Under the pieces are notes generated by a model. That model had not been told where the DNA came from and did no database searches. It worked only from the letters and a program-made list of their open reading frames with translations. Of a DNA stretch of 64,000 bases, positions 21,917 through 36,770 are shown piece after piece (position 1 is the first letter of the stretch; each line of letters starts with the position of its first letter). The stretch is taken from contig OZ022594.1 in NCBI GenBank assembly GCA_963669155.1, positions 1,966,939 to 2,030,938 on the forward strand, in the 5' to 3' direction. Origin of the DNA: Arbacia lixula (taxonomy: Eukaryota > Echinodermata > Echinoidea > Arbacioida > Arbaciidae). Both the position numbers and the translations under genes were made by a program.

Positions 21917-22243
21917 AAATAGTTTCATTTCATTCAATTTAATTTAAAAAACAGAATCAAACACTTTGGCATCGCAGAGTCTTCCTCCTTTGAATAACGG
22001 TTCAACAAAAACTCTATAGTTGATCTTAGTGATACTGTGCACATGCAGGGACATTTCTTGGTGTAAAATAAAATATATATGAAGGCACATCCAAGAAAAC
22101 CATAACTCATAACTCAGCTTGCATAGGGAAAAAAAGGTAAGCTGTGTATTAGATTTATTCAGGATAAATGTATGTGTTCATTTCCATTATACAGTATGCC
22201 AAGAAAAGTAACATTGCACTTGATACTAGACAAAATAAACACT

Positions 22244-23105
22244 GAATAATACATTACTTACGAACATACTATTCAACATAAACATCACATTTCTATTAGT
22301 TCTGGGTAATACTCCTTTATTCCCGCAATAATGAACAGAAAACTGAATAATACATAGCTTAGAAGTATACAAATTCAAGGTAAACACCAAATATCTACTA
22401 GTACTGGGTAATACTCCTTTATTCCCGCAATAATGAACAGAAAAACTGAATAATACATTGCTTAGAAGTATACAAATTTAGGATAAACTCCAAGTATCTA
22501 CTAGTACTGGGTAATACTCCTTTATTCCCGCAATAATGAACAGAAAAACTGAATAATACATTGCTTAGAAGTATACAAATTTAGGATAAACTCCAAATAT
22601 CTACTAGTACTGGGTAATACTCCTTTATTCCCGCAATAATGAACAGAAAAACTGAATAATACATTGCTTAGAAGTATACAAATTTAGGATAAACTCCAAA
22701 TATCTACTAGTACTGGGTAATACTCCTTTATTCCCGCAATAATGAACAGAAAAACTGAATAATACATAGCTTAGAAGTATACAAATTCAAGGTAAACACC
22801 AAATATCTACTAGTACTGGGTAATATTCCTTTATTCCCGCAATGATGAACAGAAAAAATGAATAATACATTGCTTAGAAGCATACAAATTTAAGATAAAC
22901 TCCAAATATCTACTTACATTACTTACAAACATACTATTCAACATAAACACCACATATATATTAGTACTGGGTTATATTCTTTTATTCCCGCAATAATGAA
23001 CAGAAAAACTGAATAATACATTGCTTACACACATACAAATTCGACATAAACACCACATACGGGTAATACAATGCACTCCTTTATGATCCCAACAATAATG
23101 AACAG
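22244..23105 (+). repeat. 103-bp tandem repeat, about 8 copies
   Basis: The unit contains tactgggtaatactccttta, ttcccgcaataatgaacag and gaataatacattgcttag. The interval between matching starts is exactly 103 bp in the middle of the array (22505, 22608, 22711). The first and last copies are diverged. No frame is conserved. Confidence 0.9.
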
Positions 23106-24150: not shown

Positions 24151-24503
24151 TTAGTTTGCCCTATCGCTGCCGCTCTTTCCTGTTTTTGATTGCGGCCGAT
24201 CTACCCGCGGCGAAGCATGCTGCTCGTCTGTGGTCTCCGAGGCCTGGCCCGGGATGCAGCGACAACATGACGGGAAGGGAGAGCATCCGGGGTTACAGCA
24301 GGGCATGAGGTCGGCGTGAGAGGGCTTGTGGATCTCCGACTGCCCCCACACCATCTTGGAATCAAACTCCTCCCGCAGCTGGGTCGCCCTGGCAACCACT
24401 GCCTGCAGGGCGGGGTCAGCTGCGCGGGGGAGGTTGTAGTTCTCCGAGGGGTCCTCGAATAGGTCAAAGAGCAAGGGCGGGTCGTGCATCTCTGGGAGAC
24501 TCA
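24151..24503 (-). CDS. ARSA-like: Arylsulfatase exon 6 (C-terminus)
   Basis: 353 bp including the stop. The acceptor is cctcatgcag. It encodes [32 protein letters not shown] and the Cys-rich [18 protein letters not shown]. About 30 hydrophilic residues follow, a tail longer than in human arylsulfatase A. Confidence 0.95.
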
Positions 24504-27500
24504 CTGCATGAGGAAGGTCGAGGTAGGGGGGGGGATACCATTTATAAACAAAACATGACTATCATAGATTATCAGTTTGGTAAAGTTTGTTCAAATACAT
24601 CTGAAAATATCACACGTACACACAATGAAATTTTAGGATTTGACCTTCGCGCGTTCTTTACCGAGCCTGCGCATTTGCGGGCTAGATATTTGCCATTAAT
24701 ACCCCCATCTCACTAGATGGAGATGCCGCTTCGATCGCAAAAATCGACAAAGCGTGGTATATCGTAGCTTGATCATGGCTTGATCTGTTCAATATTCTCC
24801 GTCGTACCTTGATCTCTTCTGAAGAAAAGAGAAAGAACATGAGAGAAAGAACAAGAGATATGGTGGTGGTATAGAGGAGGAGGATGAAAATCTTACTGCT
24901 GAGCCAGCTGGAAAGAGAAAAAAAGACGCTCACATGTCTTGATGACGAACAGGAGGAAAGTATGGTGGAATGGTTTATTGAAAATCTGGTCATCTACAAC
25001 AAGAAGATGCGAGATAGAAGGATACATCGATGAAGGAGAGACTATGGATGGCCAAGGCTGCTGAAATTGGCAAGGAGCAGCGTCGCATGTGCCGCGATTG
25101 ATATGCCGATTGCTTGAAATCGTTTCAAGCTAGAGCCCATCATGAACGTAACACAATCGCTCCATGCATTCGTAGCACCACCGTAGCGAGGTCCTAATTA
25201 GCGTATGAGCCTCGTTGTACGGTCGCTTTGATCGCAGAAGCAGCAGCGCATCACATCTGCCTCGAATCGTGGCAAGAACTAAAGTGGCAGCGTCATACTC
25301 TCAGCGTATTACCATCGCCTTCTGCGCAGGTCGATCGCAGTGAAATTGCAGTGCAATCGCCTCGCAGGCTAAAAATACAATTCGAAGAAGATTCTGCTAC
25401 GCTTTGCGGGATTTACACAGATCGCCACGGTCGCCATGATCGCCTTCCTAGTGAGATGGGGGTAAAAGATACGGAGCAGCGCAAATATCGCGTAATCTGC
25501 TGTGCGGACAATAGGTGACAAGCTATCAATAAACTTTAAATTCGTTATAGCACGCAATTTAGCCCCAAACATAGACTTTACGAACGACTGGTGATCTCTT
25601 CTTGTGCTAAGTGCGATACCACACTTTGTCCATTGAGAATCTGATTTAGCACAAGAAGGGATTACCAGTCGTTCGTAAAGTCGTTCGTAGCTTACGAACA
25701 GCTTGGTGAAACACCCCCTGGTCCTTTGAACTTAGGCAAACAAAATGTCAAAGGGTCCGTTTCAATTTTGTTTGATTGTTACAAAATATCATGTTCATAT
25801 TTGGTTAATTAATTCATACGTAATGACTTTTATTTTCGCAAGGGTTTTACATTTGCGAATTTAGCCAATCGCTTTAGGGTCGCGAATGTAACAACACGCG
25901 AATATATTGTCGCATAATCTTGGTCGCTAGGCGCATGCGCCTCGTAGTACCAACGCTATCCACCCCATGTTGGGGCACAGGCACCGTATACTATGGGCGG
26001 TCGCAAGCTTGCTAGCTTGCATAGCAGTTTGATTTCAGTGGTTACTTTGTTATTTTTCAATAGTGTAGGATATCTTTTATAAAATGCTTGTATTACGATC
26101 TATCCTAGTTTGGCAACAATTATGGATACACAATTGTGAAATATTTGAATCACCTCTGCAATCTAGATCCTTGTTTTCATTACTGCTCTGGGGATTGCCT
26201 TGGGTGATGAACACCACCTTGTACTGGTTGTGACGGATAGCGTAAGACTTCAACGCTTTGCTGCATGACTCCGGGTAGTAGTAGAAGACTTCTCTTAGAC
26301 TCTGTGATTAGGATAAGAGCAACATACACGAGGCAAGAAACACTGATCAACATACAAAGGAATTATCTTGGATATTATATTGGTATAGAAACGAAGTATG
26401 CATCCATAGGGTACAGGTTCGTAAAAAAAACTTCTCTCAGACTTTGTAATTTTACATATACATGTACCTTAAGCAACACACACCAAGCAAAAAGCACTGG
26501 TCAACATTAGACAGAATCATTTTAGATCATGTTCCATCATGGACATATCATGGATGGACTGTACTCGCACAACTTCCTTTGATCTTACAAGTCCGCTGCC
26601 ACATAACATTCAAGACATCTAGGTGTTTCAAACGATACGCAGCATTTCTAAGTAGGCAATGCCTTCCTCTGAATTACAAAAGAAAATCTGGTTTGAGAAA
26701 TATGTTGACCGTTCAGCCTTTGCAGGTAGTCCATTGTCCGTCTTAATACACAAAGTGTGAAGTAGTTTGGGGGTGCGCGAAAGAAAATTAATTTTGTTGA
26801 AATTGTAGAAATCGGTAAATGGGCTACCATGTCTATGAGTGTATTGAACTACATGCATTTGTAGTAACTACCTAAGCTAGTAAAGTGCCATGAATATGGC
26901 CCCTGCCCCCCCCCCCCCCTTCTCATCCCCTCTGTCAACGCCGACTTACTGGTTGCCCGTTGAAGAGGAAAGGTGACATGTCGTACCCATCCAGGGTCAC
27001 ATTCGGCAGAGGGGCTCCCGTTACCGCGGCGATGGTGGGAAGCACATCTAGGGTACTCGACAGGGCTAGACTCCGTCCAGGGCCGATCTGACCTGGCCAA
27101 TGAACGATAGCCGGCACCCGCATGCCCCCTTCATACGTCGTGCCTTTGCCACACTTCAATAGTCCTGCATTGCCACCAAAGTTTTTCCATGTCAGGGAGG
27201 GCCTGGGGGGGGGGGGCATTTCAGACACAGATAGTAACATGAATGTATTTTACAAAACATATCAGCAAAAGAATCTTATCACATCATCAGACCATCACAA
27301 ACATGTTCTACATGCTCAAAAAAGTTTAGTCTATAGAAAGTGAATGGACAGTGTCAAGTGGGGAGATCTCTTTTCCTAGATGGGCAAAATCAGACGGGGA
27401 TGTGAAAGCAGTTTTTAATATGCAAGTAACAACTAATTAACTAATTTATTTATTTATTTTTTTCATCTTCTTTTCTCAGGGTAGCCTTGTCAGTGATCAA

Positions 27501-30500
27501 AGCACTGATCTCCCTGGGGGCACTGGAAACACCAATCAACAAACATAACAATTAAACAATCAAAACAATTTGATGATTGACTAAAAAACTACATTACACA
27601 AAACTCACATTATAATAATAATAATATTTGATTCTTAAAGAAGCATAATATCATTCAAGTAGTCTCTATGCATGTGAAAGTAAAAATTGATTATGTGAGA
27701 GTTGAGTTGATCGAAGTCTTTCATTGATCTAATGCCTTGGGGAGGTTATTTCATAATTTGGGTGCCGTATTTGCAAAAGCTGTATCACCGAATATCTTAG
27801 ATATTACACGAATTTCAGAGAGAAGATTTGTTTATTGAGAACGATGATTACGACTAGGCTGATATCGTGTGATGAGTTCAGTAAGATAGACAGGAGCATT
27901 TCGACACAGGCATTTGAATACAAGAGTAAGAATTTTAAACTAAACGCGAGCCCTTTTCGGAAGCCAGTGGAGACAACGTAGGATTGGAGTTATGCGTTCA
28001 AATTTCCTATTTGGCGTCACAAGCCTTGCCGCTGAATTCTGTACACGTTGGAGTCTATTTAGTTGAGTCTCGGAGATTCCCAGAAACAGACCACTATTGA
28101 AATCAAAGTAATTAAATATAAATGCGTGAACGAGCCTCTCTGTGGTCGCTTTATCCAAAAAAAATGCCTAATCTTCCCAATCCTATGTAGTCCAATGGCA
28201 GCCGATTTACAAATATTATCAATGTGAGTGTTCATACTCAGATCATCCTGAACAATAACTCCAAGGTCACGTACTATTGAAACGGACAAAACGGGAATTT
28301 CAGAGACCGTTGACTGCAATGGTTGTAATTTATCACGTGGTTTTACATGCACAACTTCAGTTTTTCATAGAGTTAACTTTAGACTGTTTTGCAGTGACCA
28401 CTCCTGTATTTCACACAAGATTCAATTTGAGTTATTACTGTGACACGACGAGTAAATTTTGGTGTTGAAACATGAATTTGGTTATCATCAGCATATATCG
28501 TTTTGCTGATACCACACTTATTACATTTTTATTACATTTTCCAATGGAGCCGTGTACATAGAGAAACATAATGGCCCCATAACTGAACTCCGAGGAACCC
28601 CCTCACTTAAAACACATGGAGCAGATAAAGTGCCCTTGAGAGACACACTTTGAGTGCGGTTGCTGAAATATGAATGAAACCAGTTCAATGCAGTACATGT
28701 TCTTGTTATTCCAATATTTTAACGAACATCGATTAAGCGTAATGTCATGGTCAATAGTGTCAAATGCAGAGGAGTAACCCAGCATTAGCATTCAAGTACT
28801 GGATACAGGAGATGACAGAGAGAAACCGGATGCCCAGTGGTGCTATACTTTACCAACATTGTAAATTGTAATGGAATATTCCAAAGATTATTACACAAAA
28901 TATGACTAAATGTCATAAAACCTGCCACTAAAAATACTTGACATCATTTGACTTTATCATGTGTAAATTTAAGCTTCATTTCAGTTGCAAGTTTTTTTTA
29001 TCTTTTTTTCAAAAGTGTCTAGTACAACAAAAATAATTAGAGCAATTCAACTGCCACGCAGTCGATAAATATGCCTCCGCCTCTTTGCAAGCTTCATTAT
29101 GAAAATATCATATTTTGTTTTTCCATTTTTAGCCAAGTTTGGCAATGTTCATTGACCTTAGACCTCCTACTTCTTTGACTTCCAATCTAATCAGTCTGTC
29201 TAAATCCATCCTTGTATCACGCTTATTAAAACATTAGCCAATTTTGTGTGAAGTTTATTGACATTTGACCTTTGTAAGGAATTTTACCTAGACTTTCGCA
29301 AGTCTACCTCCATGAAGTGATACATCTCTGTACCATGTTTGGTTTGCATTGAATCATTAACTTTCGATTCAATGTGAAAAATATCATTTTGGGGACAAGT
29401 TCAGCCAATTTTGGCAAAGTTCATTGACCTTTAGCCTTTGACCTTGAGAAATTTCACCAAAACTTTTGTCAGTCTACCCCTAACTAGTGATCCATCTTTG
29501 CACCATGTTTGGTTGGTATTGCACTATTGGATATGGATTCATTTTGAAAAATCACTTTGGGGGCAATTTTCAGCTAATTTTTTGGCAAAGTTCATTGACC
29601 TTTGACCTTTACCCTTTCAGGAATTTTATCCAAATATTCACCGGTCTATCTCCATGAAGTAATTTATCTCTGTACCATGTTTATTTGAGTTGCACCATTG
29701 GATTTGAATTTGGGTTTATTTTGAAAAATATCAATCTGGGGGCAATTTTAAGCCAATTTTTGCAAAGTTAATTAGCCTGTGACTTTTGACCTTCCAGGAA
29801 TTTCACCAAAAATGTCACCAATCTACCCCCAAGTAGTGATCCATCTTTTGATTACGTTTGGTTGGAATTGCATGCACCATTGGATTTTTATTTATTGTGA
29901 AGAATACAAAGATTGGGGCAGTTTTTAGCCAATTTTGGCAAAGTTCATTCACCTTTGACCTCTGACCTTTCAGGAATTTCACCAAAAATGTCAGCAGCCT
30001 ACCCCAAAGTGACCCATCCTCGCATCATGTTTAATTACAAGTGCATCCTTGGATTTGGATTTATTGTGACAAATGTCAATTTGGGGCAATATTTCACAAA
30101 GTTCATTGACCTTTGGCCTCAATCAGAATTGACCCCTATTGTTCATGCAATACACACATGTACCAAGTTTGAAGCATATGTGGTAAGCGGTTCTAAAGAT
30201 ATTGCCTAAACGGATTCGGGACGAACGGACAGACGGCATAAAAACAGAAACTTACCCGTTGTCTGCAGTAAAGATGAAAAACGTTTCTTCCAATACGCCG
30301 CTTTCTTGAAGTTGGTCGTAGATCTGACCCACCTCCCAGTCCAAGGCCGCCAGGGAATCACCAAAGCGCCCTCTAGGGCACGTACCCGATGTCTCCTTGC
30401 CTGCATACTGGGGGTGGTGGGTGTGCTGGGAGGCGTAATACAGGAGGAACGGCGTGCCCCTCTGGGCCTTGGTCTGAATCATTTGCCTCGCTTGGGCCGT

Positions 30501-33500
30501 GTACCTCTCATCCAGGGTGAGCAGATCAACGGGCTGCTGGATGATCCTGGTGCCGTTGAACAGAGCGCAGGCCGTGTACTGGGTTTTGCACCCGGGGGGG
30601 GCACTCAAATTATATTTTGATGGGGGTGTGCCTCACGAAACCCTGAAATGGGGGTCTAAGGAACTGACTACAAGGGTAAATTCCGCATAAAATGTGGGGT
30701 CTTAGGAACTAAAAATACACCGCCCGGCATTGTGAAAAACAGGGTCTACAGAACGATCCTCGCTGCACATGCGACGCGCGTTGTGTTTACGTCAGGGTTT
30801 TCTTGCAGCTCGCTCGGCCGGCGGGTCGGGCGGCCGGGTTGATGTTGAAGCGTAGCAAGCTGCACGCAAGCCGCGGACCTGGAGAACGGAGGGAGGGGTA
30901 GACCGAAAAATCAGTCTCTACAGGACGTTGGATCCGCTGAGATTGCATCTGGCTCCTCTGAACGCCCTATTTAGAGACTGAACATTGCACCTGTACACTG
31001 TATGGCGATCTATGCGAGTCGCCATTTTGAATATAAAAACGCTAATGAAATGCATATATGAATAAGTAATTTCACGCATGCGCACATTTTTTTCCCGCTC
31101 GTTTGCCGTGTGCTGTTTTTTTTCGTCGAACCGATTGACAATTTAAATATTCATAGCCAACAACCCGTCGAAAAATCTGATTGGTCAAATTTATGTCAGA
31201 CTCGAGCAGATTGAAAATGTCTGCGATAAACGTGTGATCGGCAGAAAGTAAGTCTTTAATTTTCACCTTTCTATACATTTAGTGGAATCTTAGACCTAGA
31301 ATTGATAAATATATAATATAGATCTAATTTTGATATAAGTACATTTGTTGCATCATAGCTTGAAAGATGTTAGATTTTGAAACGAAGTCGCTATGTCTAG
31401 TTCCAAAATCCGTCTTCCCATAGACTTTGCACTAATTCCTCTAACTTTAGCAGAAACTGTATTTGCTTGTACACATAAGAACCTGGCCACTGTGCGTTCG
31501 GTGTGGATGTACCGTCTCTATTCGGGGGGTATGTCCAAAAATGTCATTTTGATTAAAGAATGCCCCCGAATGAGACGGTTATTCCTGTCTAGAGGGAGGG
31601 GCAAAGCGGGGAGGCTAAGGAGCGGAACTTTCGCGGAACTTTCGCCATGCGTAGGATATAGAGGATCTAGAGAACTAATATCGAGGTCTCAAAAAGGGGG
31701 TCTTCAAAGCGGCACGTCCCCGTACCACCAATGTATGTGAGTGCCCCCCCCCGGGGTTTTGCAGGGGGCCTGGTGGCACGAGACGTTAGGATAGAAACAC
31801 ACGGAGCAGGGACACTGGGCTGGGGAGGCAGGCAGACCTAGAGAGAAGGAAGATAAGATGGTCTCTATTCACATGCAGGGCGTACAGTGAATCCTGTATA
31901 TAAAGCCCGCTCAAGGGAAACAAGATATCCAGGTGGTCTTTATGAGCAGGTGGTCCTCATGACAGGTTACTTCCAAAACAGGGTAGCCCTTTTGCAGGTC
32001 AAACAAATACAATTTTGTATAAACCATGGACAACGGAAAAAAAAGTATAAGAACTTCCCTTTCAATAATCGAACTGGAAACTGACTGTAAGCGGAATTAC
32101 AATGTTTGCTAGATTTGGAGGTATTGGGCGGGTCGTCGATTGCCTCCCTGCCCTTGTAAAATAAAAAAAACAGAAATTTTTTGTCCGCAGCACTGTGCAT
32201 GCGTACAATGCGAGCAATGCCTGCATTGACACTATTGATTTCTCGTAACATAACTACGAATTAATGATATTTTAGGTTGGTTCTCCTGCACTAAATCAGA
32301 TGACTTAAATACCATTCAAAAGCTGTGAATCTAATTTTCAGAATATCAATGTATAGACTGATTAATGGTTTCGAGGCAACAGGGTCACAATTTATGCAGA
32401 ATAGAGAAATGATGCTGAACGCCTGTACCTAGGAATTCATCGAATCCGTGGTGAGGGGGAAGATATTTGCCGTCTTCGCCGAGGCCCAGGTGCCATTTGC
32501 CCACCATAGCGGTGTAGTATCCAAGGGGCTTTAGCATCTCAGCGACCGTTGTCTCATTATGGGGAAGTCCCCCGGACTTCAGCACATTGAACACCCCAGG
32601 GTAGATCCCAGACCGCATCTGGAATCGCCCGGTCAATAGGGCAGCCCTATCACAAAGTAGTAAAATAGAGAAATCAAATAGTAGATGTAAAGTCAAACCT
32701 GTCTTACCGGCCACCTGTCTATAGCAGCCAACCTGTTTATAAAGGCCACTAAAATGATTCCCCCGGGGAGAGATTATGTGTTAAAGAACCTGTCTATAGC
32801 AGTCACCTGTCTGTAAATGTCACAATTTGTGTTTCCCTTGGGTGGCCACTATAGACAAGTTTCACTGTACTTGCAATCCAAGACAAACCCACCCTACTTT
32901 GACAAAAGGAAGCACATAACATATCACTGAAATTTTAGTTGCTCATGTTTTTTGGTTGTTCCCACCTTACCCTACATATACATGTAGGCAAAATCTGAAA
33001 AAGGAATATTCATCGCGATGTGACGTATTGATGTAAATGAAAATGAACAACACCTTTTGCTCACTCACAAAAAGTCAAATTTGTTACTTGCTTCCTATTG
33101 TCAAAGCAGGGCAGAAATGTCATTTAAAGTGATAGTTCACCCTGAAGTTATGTCTGTTTTGATAAAAGCAGCACATGAAAGAAACATTTTAGTGAAGGTT
33201 TGACAATCGGTCAAATGAAAGAAAGTTATTAAATTTTAAAGTTTTGATTTTATGACGCCACGTGCGAGGTGCTCTCCCATAATGTTGTGTACAGAATAAT
33301 TCTATGAATTGCTGTCTTTCTGTTTCTGACATCGGAATTGTTTTTGTTCATACAGGTATTTGTGTAAAGACATATTTCAAATGATATCAAATGCACAGGT
33401 AAAAGAATACATATCTTTTTGAGCAAATGCACATTTTCAAAAAATATGTACACAACATATGGGAGAGCACTTTGCACGTGACGTCACAAAATCAAAAATT

Positions 33501-34100: not shown

Positions 34101-36770
34101 ATAGAATTTATGCTCAAGGCACTTCAGAGCAAATTAAAGAGAGAGAAAAAAATACAATACAGGAATTAACTTGTATGTCAAAAAGCACCATTATACAGGT
34201 ATGTCTTTAGGTTGCCCTTGAAGGTGGTCACTGACGTCAGGGATTTCAAACTCTGTGGAAGAGAATTCCACAGGGTTGGCCCTGCATGTGCAAAGGCCCG
34301 TTCTCCCCACGATCTCTTTGAAACCAGAACTTGCATAAGACCGGATGTGGAGGATCTTAAGGTTCGTGATGGTTGGTACGTAGTTGTGAATTAAAGATTT
34401 ATTGTAGCTGTTCGAACTATTAAGTTAGAGGTATGTATGTATAGTTAATTTATGTATTCATTATTTATTAGTATTACTTTATTTCGCAAACATGTGCATA
34501 AAAACATACAAAGATATACATATACATACACAAATTTAATATATTATACACAAAGACAAAACATACCATACTAATGCCTTGCCACTTCAACTACCCCACT
34601 CCCCCCAATCCAAAAATTAGTGGTCCATCCCTACTACGAAACAGCATCTCAAACTTCCACCCCCCATTACACATGTATCCAACTTAACCCACATGCTATC
34701 CAACTAATCCCCCCTCCCCCCCCCCCCCCCCCCCCCACCCAATTAATCAAGAACCTTCAGAGTCCACCAACCAGCCCAGGCAAGACAGGGAGACAAAGAA
34801 AGAAAAAAAAATACATACATGTACATGTAGAAATATACATAACAAGAGCAGAGGTCATCCCGGCCCAGAAAGCTCGTGGGGACAACAGCCAAACCACAAC
34901 CGCAGCAGCAACGCGCTGCACGCTGCACACATACCTCTATCAGGGCGACCTCACACCTCATGATTTAAAAAAAAAAATGAAATTCCACTGCTATTGTATG
35001 AAAGGTGATATTCATAGGAAATAAAATCAAATAAATATAGTTTATTTTATAATAGAATGAGTTATTAAAGCAATTTATGCAGCTAACATACCATGAAAGT
35101 GTTCAGTTTTGTGTTGAATGAAAGTCAAATTTTACTAAATTGACTCTCTTCCTGACCTACGAAATCGCCTCAGGTAAAGTGGCGTTGTGTGTACGTCACA
35201 GCCGGGATACGCTTCACAATGACCATTGTGTATCACACCTGTTAATCCACTAGCAACTGCCATCACAGTTTCATTAACAATGCATGCTTCTGGCGGAAAA
35301 GAAGCTGCGGATTGGCATGTTTGATGCACAATAACGCATCCCTTTTCTTACGTCAGACCTAAAGGCCATTTCGGATGACAGTAGGGCAAATTTGTCCCCG
35401 CGAATACGGTGATTGTTTTCACCCTAATTTCGCTTTTTGGAAAGTGATATATTGTTTGAATCTCGATCATCCAAGCTCATTGTATGGCTCATAAGCTTTC
35501 TGTAGATGAATATCTTCATATTTTTGAATTTTCTATGAATATCACCTTTAACACCAATCGCATCTAGACACCCCCAAACCCACCAGCACAGACGACGCAC
35601 TAAGGGCAGCCAACCAACCGAAGGAGGGGCCACGCCCACCACCCCACGTTCTTCTAGTACAACGTAGAATGCCAAGCACGGCCCATCCCCGAACCAGGCA
35701 ACAGCCCCCGTACGCCACCCTTACAAGTAAATTGCCCATGAAACTAAAAATAGACTTTCTCATATATACTCCCCGAAGCTCGGGGAGTAATTATAATAAT
35801 CAATTACCTGCTTCAGAATAAAAATACACATATCAGTTGAATGTTGAGATTTAAAGGCAAACTGGCGGTCGTCTGTACCCAAACCATCACAACAAAAATC
35901 AATAAGCAAATATTCCAGTAATTTAGATGAAATACATGCCAGAGCAATTGGTCTATAATTGCTCATAGCTGTTACATCACCTGTTCTACATTTCACTATA
36001 GGAACCAGAATGACTTTTGTAAGTGATTCTAGAACAAAACCATGGCGAATCATTGCATTAAAACACAGAGACAACAAAACATTAACTCTATCGCTTGAAA
36101 AAATAAAGTGCTCCGCAGCGATTTGATCAAAACCTGCTGCCTTTCCACGCTTCAATTTCAGAACATGATCCTTAACATTTTGGTGAGTAGCGCACAAGGT
36201 AACTTATTAGCAGTACACTTATTATTCTGAATATGTTCATTAACCACATTTTGTTCTGAAGTATTTTTTACACTATCAAAAAGGCTTTCATAATGCATAG
36301 CCCACATTTTACATATTTCATCATCTCCAGTAGCATTCTCTATTACATTTGTAGATGTTGTCACTGTTGTTAACAAACATACCCGTGCCATATGGACCCT
36401 ATAACTCTGTCTCTGATATATGAAAAACAGATATATTATGTGCACTCAAAAAATCTATATTATATTCATTTTTCATTATTCATGTTTCATTATACTCTCA
36501 ATAAGTTTTAAACACGCACCTGGAAGGACTGCATACTGCCGCAGCAGAGTAAAACTCAGTCAGCACTTTCCCACCGGCCGCTAGCCGGGCAAGGTTCGGC
36601 GTGGACGACGTCGGATGTCCGTACACATCTAAATCCCCGTACCCCAAGTCATCTCCAAAGAATATCACGATATTTGGTCGGTTATTCCGAGTTAATCCAT
36701 AACATTCTGTCGCACATATCATTAAGATGGCAGCAATTGCCACCCCTGAGAGAACTGTACTATAATTCAT
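24151..36770 (-). CDS. ARSA-like: Arylsulfatase A-like gene (6 exons, exon 3 interrupted)
   Basis: Joining exons at 36770-36520, 32646-32429, 31837-31756 plus 30582-30256, 27202-26950, 26301-26154 and 24503-24151 gives 1632 nt, 543 residues. Residues 1-25 form a hydrophobic signal peptide. [14 protein letters not shown] carries the metal-binding Asp40-Asp41. [12 protein letters not shown] holds Cys80, the residue that becomes formylglycine in sulfatases. Next come [13 protein letters not shown] (Lys134, His136), [13 protein letters not shown] (Asp291, Asn292) and [18 protein letters not shown] and the Cys-rich end [15 protein letters not shown] point to the arylsulfatase A branch. Established function: sulfate-ester hydrolysis in the lysosome or outside the cell. 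Five introns use GT/AG, and the frame closes across all of them. The oddity is the transposon inside exon 3, so this allele may be null unless the insert is removed from the RNA. The exact sulfatase substrate is not known. Confidence 0.93.
24700..25464 (+). mobile_element. PIF/Harbinger-like element remnant
   Basis: Inverted ends TACCCCCATCTCACTAG (24700-24716) and CTAGTGAGATGGGGGTA (25448-25464). Inside, the plus strand reads [17 protein letters not shown] then VIYNKKMRD, then after a stop or frameshift [15 protein letters not shown]. This is the pattern of the Myb/SANT- or MADF-like protein carried by Harbinger elements. The frame is broken and no nuclease frame is seen. It lies in the last intron of the sulfatase gene. 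Confidence 0.65.
25575..25681. repeat. Strong hairpin, 36-bp arms
   Basis: Arms 25575-25610 (actttacgaacgactgg...) and 25646-25681 are complementary with about two mismatches, around a 35-nt loop. A further gtcgttcgta copy follows at 25681-25690. It could be a tiny foldback element or a transcribed hairpin in the sulfatase intron. Confidence 0.75.
25825..25920 (+). repeat. Degenerate copy of CpG-rich MITE
   Basis: ttttattttcgcaagggttt, gcgaatttagcc and gtaacaacacgcgaatat follow the order of the 8162-8716 element. Confidence 0.5.
26154..26301 (-). CDS. ARSA-like: Arylsulfatase exon 5
   Basis: 148 bp, residues 378-426 plus one base. The acceptor is tatcctaatcacag. It reads [28 protein letters not shown] and NENKDLDCR, matching the FYPSYP...VRTGKYKAHFFTQG region of arylsulfatase A. 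The frame is too short to appear as a long open frame, so it was found by splicing and homology. The donor is GTGATT. Confidence 0.9.
26540..26830 (-). repeat. Dispersed repeat, copy 2 of 2
   Basis: Homologous to 14560-14890. It sits in intron 4 of the sulfatase gene. Confidence 0.55.
26950..27202 (-). CDS. ARSA-like: Arylsulfatase exon 4
   Basis: 253 bp. The acceptor follows a long C tract (cccccccag). It encodes [37 protein letters not shown], then [19 protein letters not shown]. The Lys in [10 protein letters not shown] is the conserved active-site lysine. The donor is GTAAGT and the exon ends on a full codon (377). Confidence 0.95.
27430..28860 (-). pseudogene. CR1/L2-type LINE remnant in intron 3
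   Basis: Minus-strand fragments in order: 28791-28603 with [18 protein letters not shown] (RT core motif), 28352-28059 with [20 protein letters not shown] and HIDNICKSA, then 28158-27940 with [33 protein letters not shown] and [13 protein letters not shown]. Frameshifts separate them. An (AAT)n run at about 27612-27630 may mark the 3' tail region. The catalytic YADD region is not intact. Orientation is the same as the host gene. Confidence 0.85.
29037..30236 (+). repeat. Dispersed repeat with internal 170-bp tandem, DR1 words
   Basis: Starts tagagcaattcaactgcc and gcctccgcctc as in 5429-5945, and ends cggacagacggc. Between them about five to six units of 157-177 bp repeat around aaagttcattgacctttgac (about 29416, 29586, 29763, 29940, 30096). 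Perfect DR1 nuclear-receptor words occur at 29596-29608 (TGACCTTTGACCT) and 29956-29968 (TGACCTCTGACCT), and the others are diverged. It lies in intron 3, just downstream of exon 3 in gene orientation. Confidence 0.75.
30256..30582 (-). CDS. ARSA-like: Arylsulfatase exon 3, 3' part (after insertion)
   Basis: 327 bp. It resumes exactly after the second TGCAAAAC copy (30590-30583) with CCAGTAC, continuing codon 184 in frame to give [13 protein letters not shown]. It includes [14 protein letters not shown] and ends at TADNG with donor GTAAGT. No splice acceptor that would precisely skip the insert is evident at the junction. Confidence 0.92.
30591..31755. mobile_element. TIR transposon inside arylsulfatase exon 3
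   Basis: On the plus strand the element begins CCCGGGGGGGGCACTCA and ends TGAGTGCCCCCCCCCGGG, 17-bp inverted repeats differing by one base in the G run. It is flanked on both sides by gttttgca (30583-30590 and 31756-31763), a perfect 8-bp target duplication. The interior is about 1.1 kb with no transposase similarity. A 115-codon plus frame (31393-31740) and other short frames look incidental. The 8-bp duplication fits hAT or P superfamilies, but neither has been confirmed from the termini. Confidence 0.9.
31756..31837 (-). CDS. ARSA-like: Arylsulfatase exon 3, 5' part (before insertion)
   Basis: 82 bp. The acceptor is ccttctctctag with a good pyrimidine tract. It reads [11 protein letters not shown] then [16 protein letters not shown], with a potential N-glycosylation site (NVS). 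The frame stops being host sequence at TGCAAAAC (31763-31756), the first copy of the 8-bp target duplication, in codon 184. An alternative acceptor 17 bases downstream (cctccccag) has a different phase and omits the GLPASP stretch. Confidence 0.85.
32429..32646 (-). CDS. ARSA-like: Arylsulfatase exon 2
   Basis: 218 bp. The acceptor is tttgtgatag and the first base completes Arg84, then [30 protein letters not shown] and [11 protein letters not shown]. The donor GTACAG follows cctag, leaving one base of codon 157. All sulfatase signature II residues are present. Confidence 0.95.
32685..32872. mobile_element. Palindromic MITE upstream of exon 2
   Basis: The left end gtaaagtcaaacctgtctta and right end gactatagacaagtttcactgtac-like sequence are imperfect complements. 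The word cctgtctatagcag is repeated inside. A diverged partial copy (gtggtcctcatgacaggtt) lies at about 31935-31970. It begins about 40 bp from the exon 2 acceptor. Confidence 0.6.
33125..33500. mobile_element. CRE/E-box MITE, 3'-truncated
   Basis: Begins taaagtgatagttcaccctg and includes the inverted arms ccacgtgcgaggtgctctcc and gggagagcactttgcacgtg. CACGTGACGTCA stands at 33475-33486. The right terminal segment is missing after atcaaaaatttaaaag. Located in intron 1. Confidence 0.75.
34056..34100 (+). repeat. (AAT)n microsatellite
   Basis: About 14 AAT triplets. The 300 bp that follow include gaattccacagggttggccc and look like an old repeat, family not recognised. Confidence 0.9.
34620..34985 (+). 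repeat. C-rich low-complexity block
   Basis: Contains a run of more than 25 C broken by a single T, and an open frame of 134 codons produced by that composition. A similar C-rich style resumes at 35551-35740 beyond TIR element copy B, so the element may have split one older sequence. Confidence 0.5.
35001..35550. mobile_element. Non-autonomous TIR element, copy B
   Basis: Ends aaaggtgatattcatagg and its complement ctatgaatatcaccttt. The interior matches copy A at 17937-18454 but includes an extra stretch near the right end (tagatgaatatcttcata). Located in intron 1 of the sulfatase gene. Confidence 0.8.
35760..36445 (-). pseudogene. LINE reverse-transcriptase fragment in intron 1
   Basis: Minus strand. 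36197-35760 encodes [52 protein letters not shown] and [18 protein letters not shown], the N-terminal half of a non-LTR reverse transcriptase (fingers and palm before the catalytic YADD). Upstream, 36445-36158 gives the linker [21 protein letters not shown] frameshift joins the two near 36190. It is cut off at 35760, so the catalytic part is missing. Confidence 0.88.
36520..36770 (-). CDS. ARSA-like: Arylsulfatase exon 1 (signal peptide, catalytic Cys)
   Basis: Residues 1-83 plus two bases of codon 84. The start [16 protein letters not shown] opens a signal peptide ending near CYG. The exon ends after CCTTCCAG with donor GTGCGTG, cutting inside the Arg codon of CSPSR, so the formylglycine signature is completed only by splicing. 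In the unspliced frame a stop follows within seven codons. Confidence 0.95.

Follow-up and report, generated by a model that had tools for sequence, protein, structure and literature searches.

An arylsulfatase A-like gene of the sea urchin Arbacia lixula is interrupted within its third exon by a 1165-bp insert, located at positions 30591-31755 of the window (the whole 64,000-nucleotide stretch of DNA analysed here), and this insert consists of one transposable element nested inside another. Both insertions and their target site duplications (TSDs), the many relatives of both elements, the empty site in a paralogous gene and the otherwise open reading of the interrupted gene are direct observations. 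As an explanation of the whole, we consider it very probable that the insertion is very recent and has produced a null allele of a duplicated gene, with the paralog providing cover and/or the allele still segregating.

The interrupted sulfatase gene

The gene lies on the minus strand of contig C19 in an unphased 607-Mb assembly of 590 contigs. Apart from the insert in exon 3, its six exons keep an open frame between the start ATG and the stop codon, with GT and AG found at all intron edges (Table 1), in agreement with the otherwise open six-exon gene that an earlier reading of these letters, made without database searches, had described (hereafter the sequence-only reading). The gene is arylsulfatase A-like by its sulfatase domain, its C-x-P-S-R motif and its metal and catalytic residues. 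PF00884 is matched by exons 1 and 3b (Pfam), and the best protein matches of exon 3b are arylsulfatase A chains; a comparison of exon 3a with phage records gave no match. The window copy carries DDLGYGD, CSPSR, GKWHLG, HTHHPQ and FTADNG in addition to a 10-residue motif in exon 4, with CSPSR and FTADNG each straddling an intron. These motifs contain the sulfatase catalytic residues that the sequence-only reading had claimed to be present, their catalytic roles being those we presume from human ARSA.

Other repeats, some of them putative, lie in and around the gene. In introns 3 and 1, minus-strand frames at 28059-28791, 34178-34390 and 35760-36203 resemble LINE reverse transcriptase by eye; the frames at 28059-28364 and 35760-36203 had no Pfam match at E 0.001. 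Past the 3' end of the gene, a 103-bp unit is repeated in tandem (22237-22914; 6.6 copies, 93%), and blocks related to this array are found near the paralog too.

Table 1. Exons of the window sulfatase gene and components of the insert in exon 3, in gene order (window positions)
Feature	Position	Strand	Remarks
Exon 1, coding	36520-36770	-	ATG to donor; CSPS of sulfatase motif; PF00884 match (Pfam)
Exon 2	32429-32646	-	Contains AALLTGR and GKWHLG
Exon 3, upstream part (3a)	31756-31837	-	Ends in first target copy, TGCAAAAC in gene sense
8-bp TSD, copy 2, GTTTTGCA	31756-31763		Exact
Outer non-autonomous TIR element, right part	31592-31755		TIR 31739-31755; 97-100% matches
10-bp TSD of inner element, copy 2, GAGGGAGGGG	31592-31601		
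Inner nested non-autonomous element, 693 bp	30899-31591		Separate, apparently commoner family
10-bp TSD of inner element, copy 1, GAGGGAGGGG	30889-30898		
Outer non-autonomous TIR element, left part	30591-30898		TIR 30591-30606; 97-100% matches
8-bp TSD, copy 1, GTTTTGCA	30583-30590		Exact
Exon 3, downstream part (3b)	30256-30590	-	Starts with second target copy; holds HTHHPQ and FTADN
Exon 4	26950-27202	-	Holds 10-residue sulfatase motif
Exon 5	26154-26301	-	
Exon 6, to stop codon	24151-24503	-	

Two nested elements and their families

The ends of the insert, CCCGGGGGGGGCACTC and GAGTGCCCCCCCCCGGG on the plus strand, form inverted repeats (CCCGGGGGGGGCACTC versus CCCGGGGGGGGGCACTC) with 20-nt arms that are 90% complementary. 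Within the window, the core of these terminal inverted repeats (TIRs), GGGGGGGCACTC, has two matches, one at each end of the insert, where 0.04 would be expected by chance (up to one mismatch). The exact GTTTTGCA pair and the TIR core matches bear out the coordinates, the 8-bp duplication and the inverted ends given by the sequence-only reading. That reading had further taken the insert to be a single 1165-bp element; the length stands, and the single element has to be replaced by an element of about 460 bp with a 693-bp element of another family nested within it. An Rfam search of 30400-31900 gave no match at E up to 1.

The outer element, about 460 bp long without the inner insertion, is non-autonomous and of TIR type, and shows no long open frame of its own. 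Identity to other copies is 97-100% in the best 40 of 327 candidates for 30592-30898 and in the best 40 of 300 candidates for 31592-31754, the window's own copy included in each case. Genome-wide, 274 left and 274 right ends are found at up to two mismatches (139+135 and 143+131), with none for the reversed control. From the loci read, 48 full-length copies were reduced to 40 distinct sites, which were the best-scored and hence lean young. In these other copies, the two outer parts adjoin and GAGGGAGGGG occurs once, and none of the 40 is interrupted. Exact 8-bp TSDs flank 33 of 39 distinct copies (L034 dropped), and none was found in the other six. Thirty of the 33 directly abut CCCG...CGGG from outside, and the other three are offset by a single C, extra or missing; the duplication at L012, a run of C, is uninformative. 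The sequence-only reading had proposed a genome search for further copies, and these end matches and duplications are what such a search returns.

In having TIRs and a TSD of fixed length, as well as in its shortness and its hundreds of end matches, the outer element is like MITEs and other non-autonomous TIR DNA transposons. Its target leans to the palindrome G(T/G)TNNA(A/C)C. The target preference of the hAT type is nTnnnnAn; T stands at position 2 in 13 of 34 targets and A at position 7 in nine of 34 (window copy included), and membership in hAT was rejected. The 8-bp TSD and the palindromic tendency were also compared with the P superfamily. The P-type transposase family PF21787 has 39 matches in this genome, and the seven stretches read around such loci (L063-L069) lack the outer TIR and provide no autonomous partner; in this set, element ends are undefined, L063 lies within L069, L064 is 99% like L069, and L067 and L068 share a 9-kb near-identical segment. 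Those last two loci, on different chromosomes (G000:C10 near 25.0 Mb, C14 near 0.377 Mb), are 99.94% identical over the 9 kb, and the same 784-aa P-type transposase frame, with the same score, occurs at four places. These findings suggest either a recent burst or a large segment that is mobile or has been duplicated. Unpaired outer ends at three places (L070-L072) belong to one complete copy, one copy that is partly missing and carries an inner-family insertion, and one truncated copy. A literature search with part of the outer TIR sequence gave no match. The accessible portions of the literature on Zisupton and target site duplications contained nothing matching the outer TIR, and those of the literature on sea urchin MITEs and exons and on spliced-out exonic transposons contained nothing on the outer element.

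The best 40 of 2627 candidates for the inner element comprise itself and 39 others at 95-99% identity, with 16 weaker pieces in addition. Among seven other inner copies read for their TSD, six have an exact 9-bp duplication, and the two arms of the seventh match at 8 of 9 bases. A duplication of 9-10 bp is shared with non-autonomous Mutator-like elements (MULEs), from which the inner element differs in that its TIR, identified by eye (TAGAC...), is no more than short and imperfect.

Elsewhere in the genome (L071, 29-1371; G000:C1:15661240-15664700), an outer element carries an inner-family element of 82.6% identity that is oriented the other way round; its 9-bp duplication, AGCGGGGAG, lies some twelve bases away from the nesting site in the window. 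This is an independent nest at a G-rich site, and the nesting site may be a hot spot for nested insertion.

The paralog, the age of the insertion and its predicted effect

Exon 3b has two matches in the genome only, itself and, on another chromosome, C20:16436591-16436925 at 94% identity, and no further exon 3b allele, broken or whole, is found on any contig. The C20 locus holds a whole sulfatase gene with an open reading frame for an intact 547-aa protein, on which Pfam places PF00884 and PF14707 and whose best protein relatives are arylsulfatase A-like (68% and 67% in two sea urchins, 69% in another source). Exon 3 of this paralog is contiguous: the counterpart of exon 3a continues directly into that of 30256-30590, and there is one target copy, TGCGAACC in gene sense, against TGCAAAAC twice in the window gene. 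On this comparison, exon 3 of the paralog is a natural empty site for the insertion, and the window gene is one of a duplicate pair, which the sequence-only reading had missed. More arylsulfatase-A-like exons, 39-80% identical to the paralog protein, are clustered at G000:C8:10676112-10738429, an arrangement that suggests a local sulfatase gene family.

An assembly that is unphased and derives from a highly heterozygous animal might have joined unrelated loci inside the exon. Such a misjoin is unlikely because the paralog shows the empty site, and it would not create exact TSDs at both nested levels, two full-length elements with many relatives each, or flanks that are contiguous in the paralog. 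We rejected misassembly on these grounds and regard it as scarcely credible.

The two genes differ unevenly along their length. Exons 1 to 4 are 92.5-96% identical, exon 5 86% and exon 6 88%; non-coding sequence aligns at about 84-92% in clearly alignable stretches and at 70-80% in repeat-rich blocks. With the exon 6 tail after DEQHA excluded, the pair has a dS of 0.154 and a pairwise dN/dS of 0.39, and both dS and dN are highest in exons 5 and 6. At 24151-24260 on the minus strand, a 2-bp indel and further indels between the paralogs change the frame of the last residues, and the outgroup proteins do not tell which C-terminal frame is ancestral.

These differences bear on whether the window duplicate was already decaying, such that the elements landed in a neutral pseudogene. 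When amino acid changes are polarised with three outgroup proteins, 20 fall on the window copy and 12 on the paralog, with 25 unresolved and 461 positions the same. The excess on the window lineage is in the direction that prior decay would produce, as are five versus two changes at positions identical in all three outgroups (for example, Tyr to Phe after LTGR) and the fact that exons 5 and 6 are kept no better than many intron stretches. However, the difference of 20 to 12 is not significant (p = 0.215), and the 1640 nt of coding sequence contain no internal stop or frameshift, save an in-frame 3-bp gap and the indels in the variable C-terminal tail, which may have arisen on either lineage. 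The close match of exons 1 to 4 and the dN/dS value, calculated with that tail excluded, likewise argue against decay before the insertion, which we consider unlikely.

The preferred explanation, a very recent nested insertion, is also consistent with the small number of substitutions within the insert. Compared with the majority sequence of 40 others, the outer copy shows five differences in 432 core sites, of which two are private, one is found in one other copy, and two are found in nine or ten. The inner copy has two substitutions, of 693 sites, that are absent from seven other copies. For the whole insert, this gives private substitutions at 4 of 1125 sites, or 0.36% (0.10-0.91%), a figure that rests on four substitutions and on 40 other outer and seven other inner copies all chosen for similarity. 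Silent divergence per lineage since the gene duplication is about 7.7% (half of dS), and the private substitutions amount to 5% (1-12%) of this. The low level accords with the claim of the sequence-only reading that the insertion is recent. The heterozygosity of A. lixula given in the accessible part of a published report is 3.47-4.40% (PMC11310861), which converts to about 1.7-2.2% per lineage. Because the insertion would then be younger than a typical pair of alleles, we infer that it most likely still segregates in the population.

If exons 1-3 are read into the insert, a stop is reached after 200 aa, with DDLGYGD, CSPSR and GKWHLG before it and HTHHPQ, FTADNG and the 10-residue exon 4 motif beyond it. 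Transcripts of the window copy that read into the insert would hence lose H229, D281, N282 and K302, which we take, in human ARSA numbering, to be catalytic residues. Such truncated transcripts would probably be degraded by nonsense-mediated decay, and for this reason the window allele is predicted to be null. The paralog protein matches residues 32-509 of human ARSA (PDB 1auk) at E about 1e-140, active-site motifs included, whereas the frame of the window copy breaks off before H229, in a variable loop that contains cysteine. In gene sense, the insert contains one ATTAAA and no AATAAA.

Two ways of keeping a product were ruled out. Without the insert, exon 3 has a length of 409 nt, which is not a multiple of 3, so skipping of this exon would shift the frame and is no rescue. 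The insert being read through as a domain insertion is excluded by the stop.

On the explanation that we favor, a non-autonomous cut-and-paste element of about 460 bp, which has a 693-bp element of a second family nested in it, entered exon 3 very recently; the nest may have formed before or after that entry. The insertion would persist through cover by the intact C20 paralog, through segregation, or both.

Splicing of the insert

The intactness of all the presumed catalytic motifs and the dN/dS value also fit a gene that is still used by some splicing route. Under this alternative, the insert would be spliced out of the RNA as an incipient intron by a cryptic in-frame pair, in which a donor (GTG|GTACGG in gene sense) some 30 nt into the outer element is joined to an acceptor 44 nt into exon 3b; the resulting in-frame protein would be shorter by two residues and would retain the catalytic motifs. 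There are 53 in-frame, stop-free donor/acceptor pairs that keep both HTHHPQ and FTADN; all splice scores come from weight matrices not trained on A. lixula, and cover GT-AG pairs only. The donor of the best pair, at 1.37, is within the spread of -0.82 to 6.51 that the ten real donors in both genes show, but its acceptor, at -1.97, falls under all ten real acceptors (0.66 to 8.34). The sum of the pair, -0.6, is equalled or beaten in 65 of 200 shuffled inserts (single-base shuffles). At and around the TSD, the interval that reaches from 23 nt ahead of the upstream junction to 26 nt past it has no GT, and hence no GT-AG pair removes the insert exactly, as the sequence-only reading had stated for obvious splice pairs.

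In the accessible part of a published account, introners have TSDs of 3-9 bp, with one family at 8 bp, and recruit splice sites from the TSD, the element or the neighboring exon (PMC9860276). The window insert is like the introners of that account in being a TIR element with a TSD inside a coding exon, and differs from them in that its ends lack splice sites for exact removal; splice sites from the element or TSD that would restore the mRNA were not found.

A further comparison with introners concerns the location of other outer copies, which the sequence-only reading had raised as a check. The 33 sites with exact TSDs, part of about 274 copies, were judged by the open frame across the empty site, with the 152 aa of the window's own exon as yardstick, a coarse test that could miss short exons. 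One site (L041), with a 303-aa frame, falls where a LINE-type endonuclease frame (PF03372) begins. At L040, L047 and L048 (99-113 aa), five of the flanking peptides were compared with Pfam and none of these five matched, and the frames of the remaining 29 sites (33-97 aa) were judged by length alone. By this test, one of the 33 sites lies at a LINE-type frame and none shows a host gene exon, so that other outer copies give no evidence of residence in host gene exons.

Taking both sides together, we consider removal of the insert from the RNA very unlikely. The fuller version, in which cryptic in-frame splicing makes the nested insertion tolerated and a 1.2-kb intron has been born in one step and still segregates, appears less likely still. 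Among the options named by the sequence-only reading (a null allele, a polymorphic insertion or an insert removed from the RNA), a null and probably polymorphic allele fits best, and the incipient intron is without positive evidence.

The event adds one more case to a well-known class, the disruption of an exon by a transposon, and in mechanism it is ordinary. It nevertheless provides a clean natural experiment, in which an exon insertion that is very young and probably still segregates can be set against an intact paralog, its empty-site control. The sulfatase pair thereby allows a direct test of whether such an insertion is tolerated by redundancy, by splicing, or only in heterozygotes.
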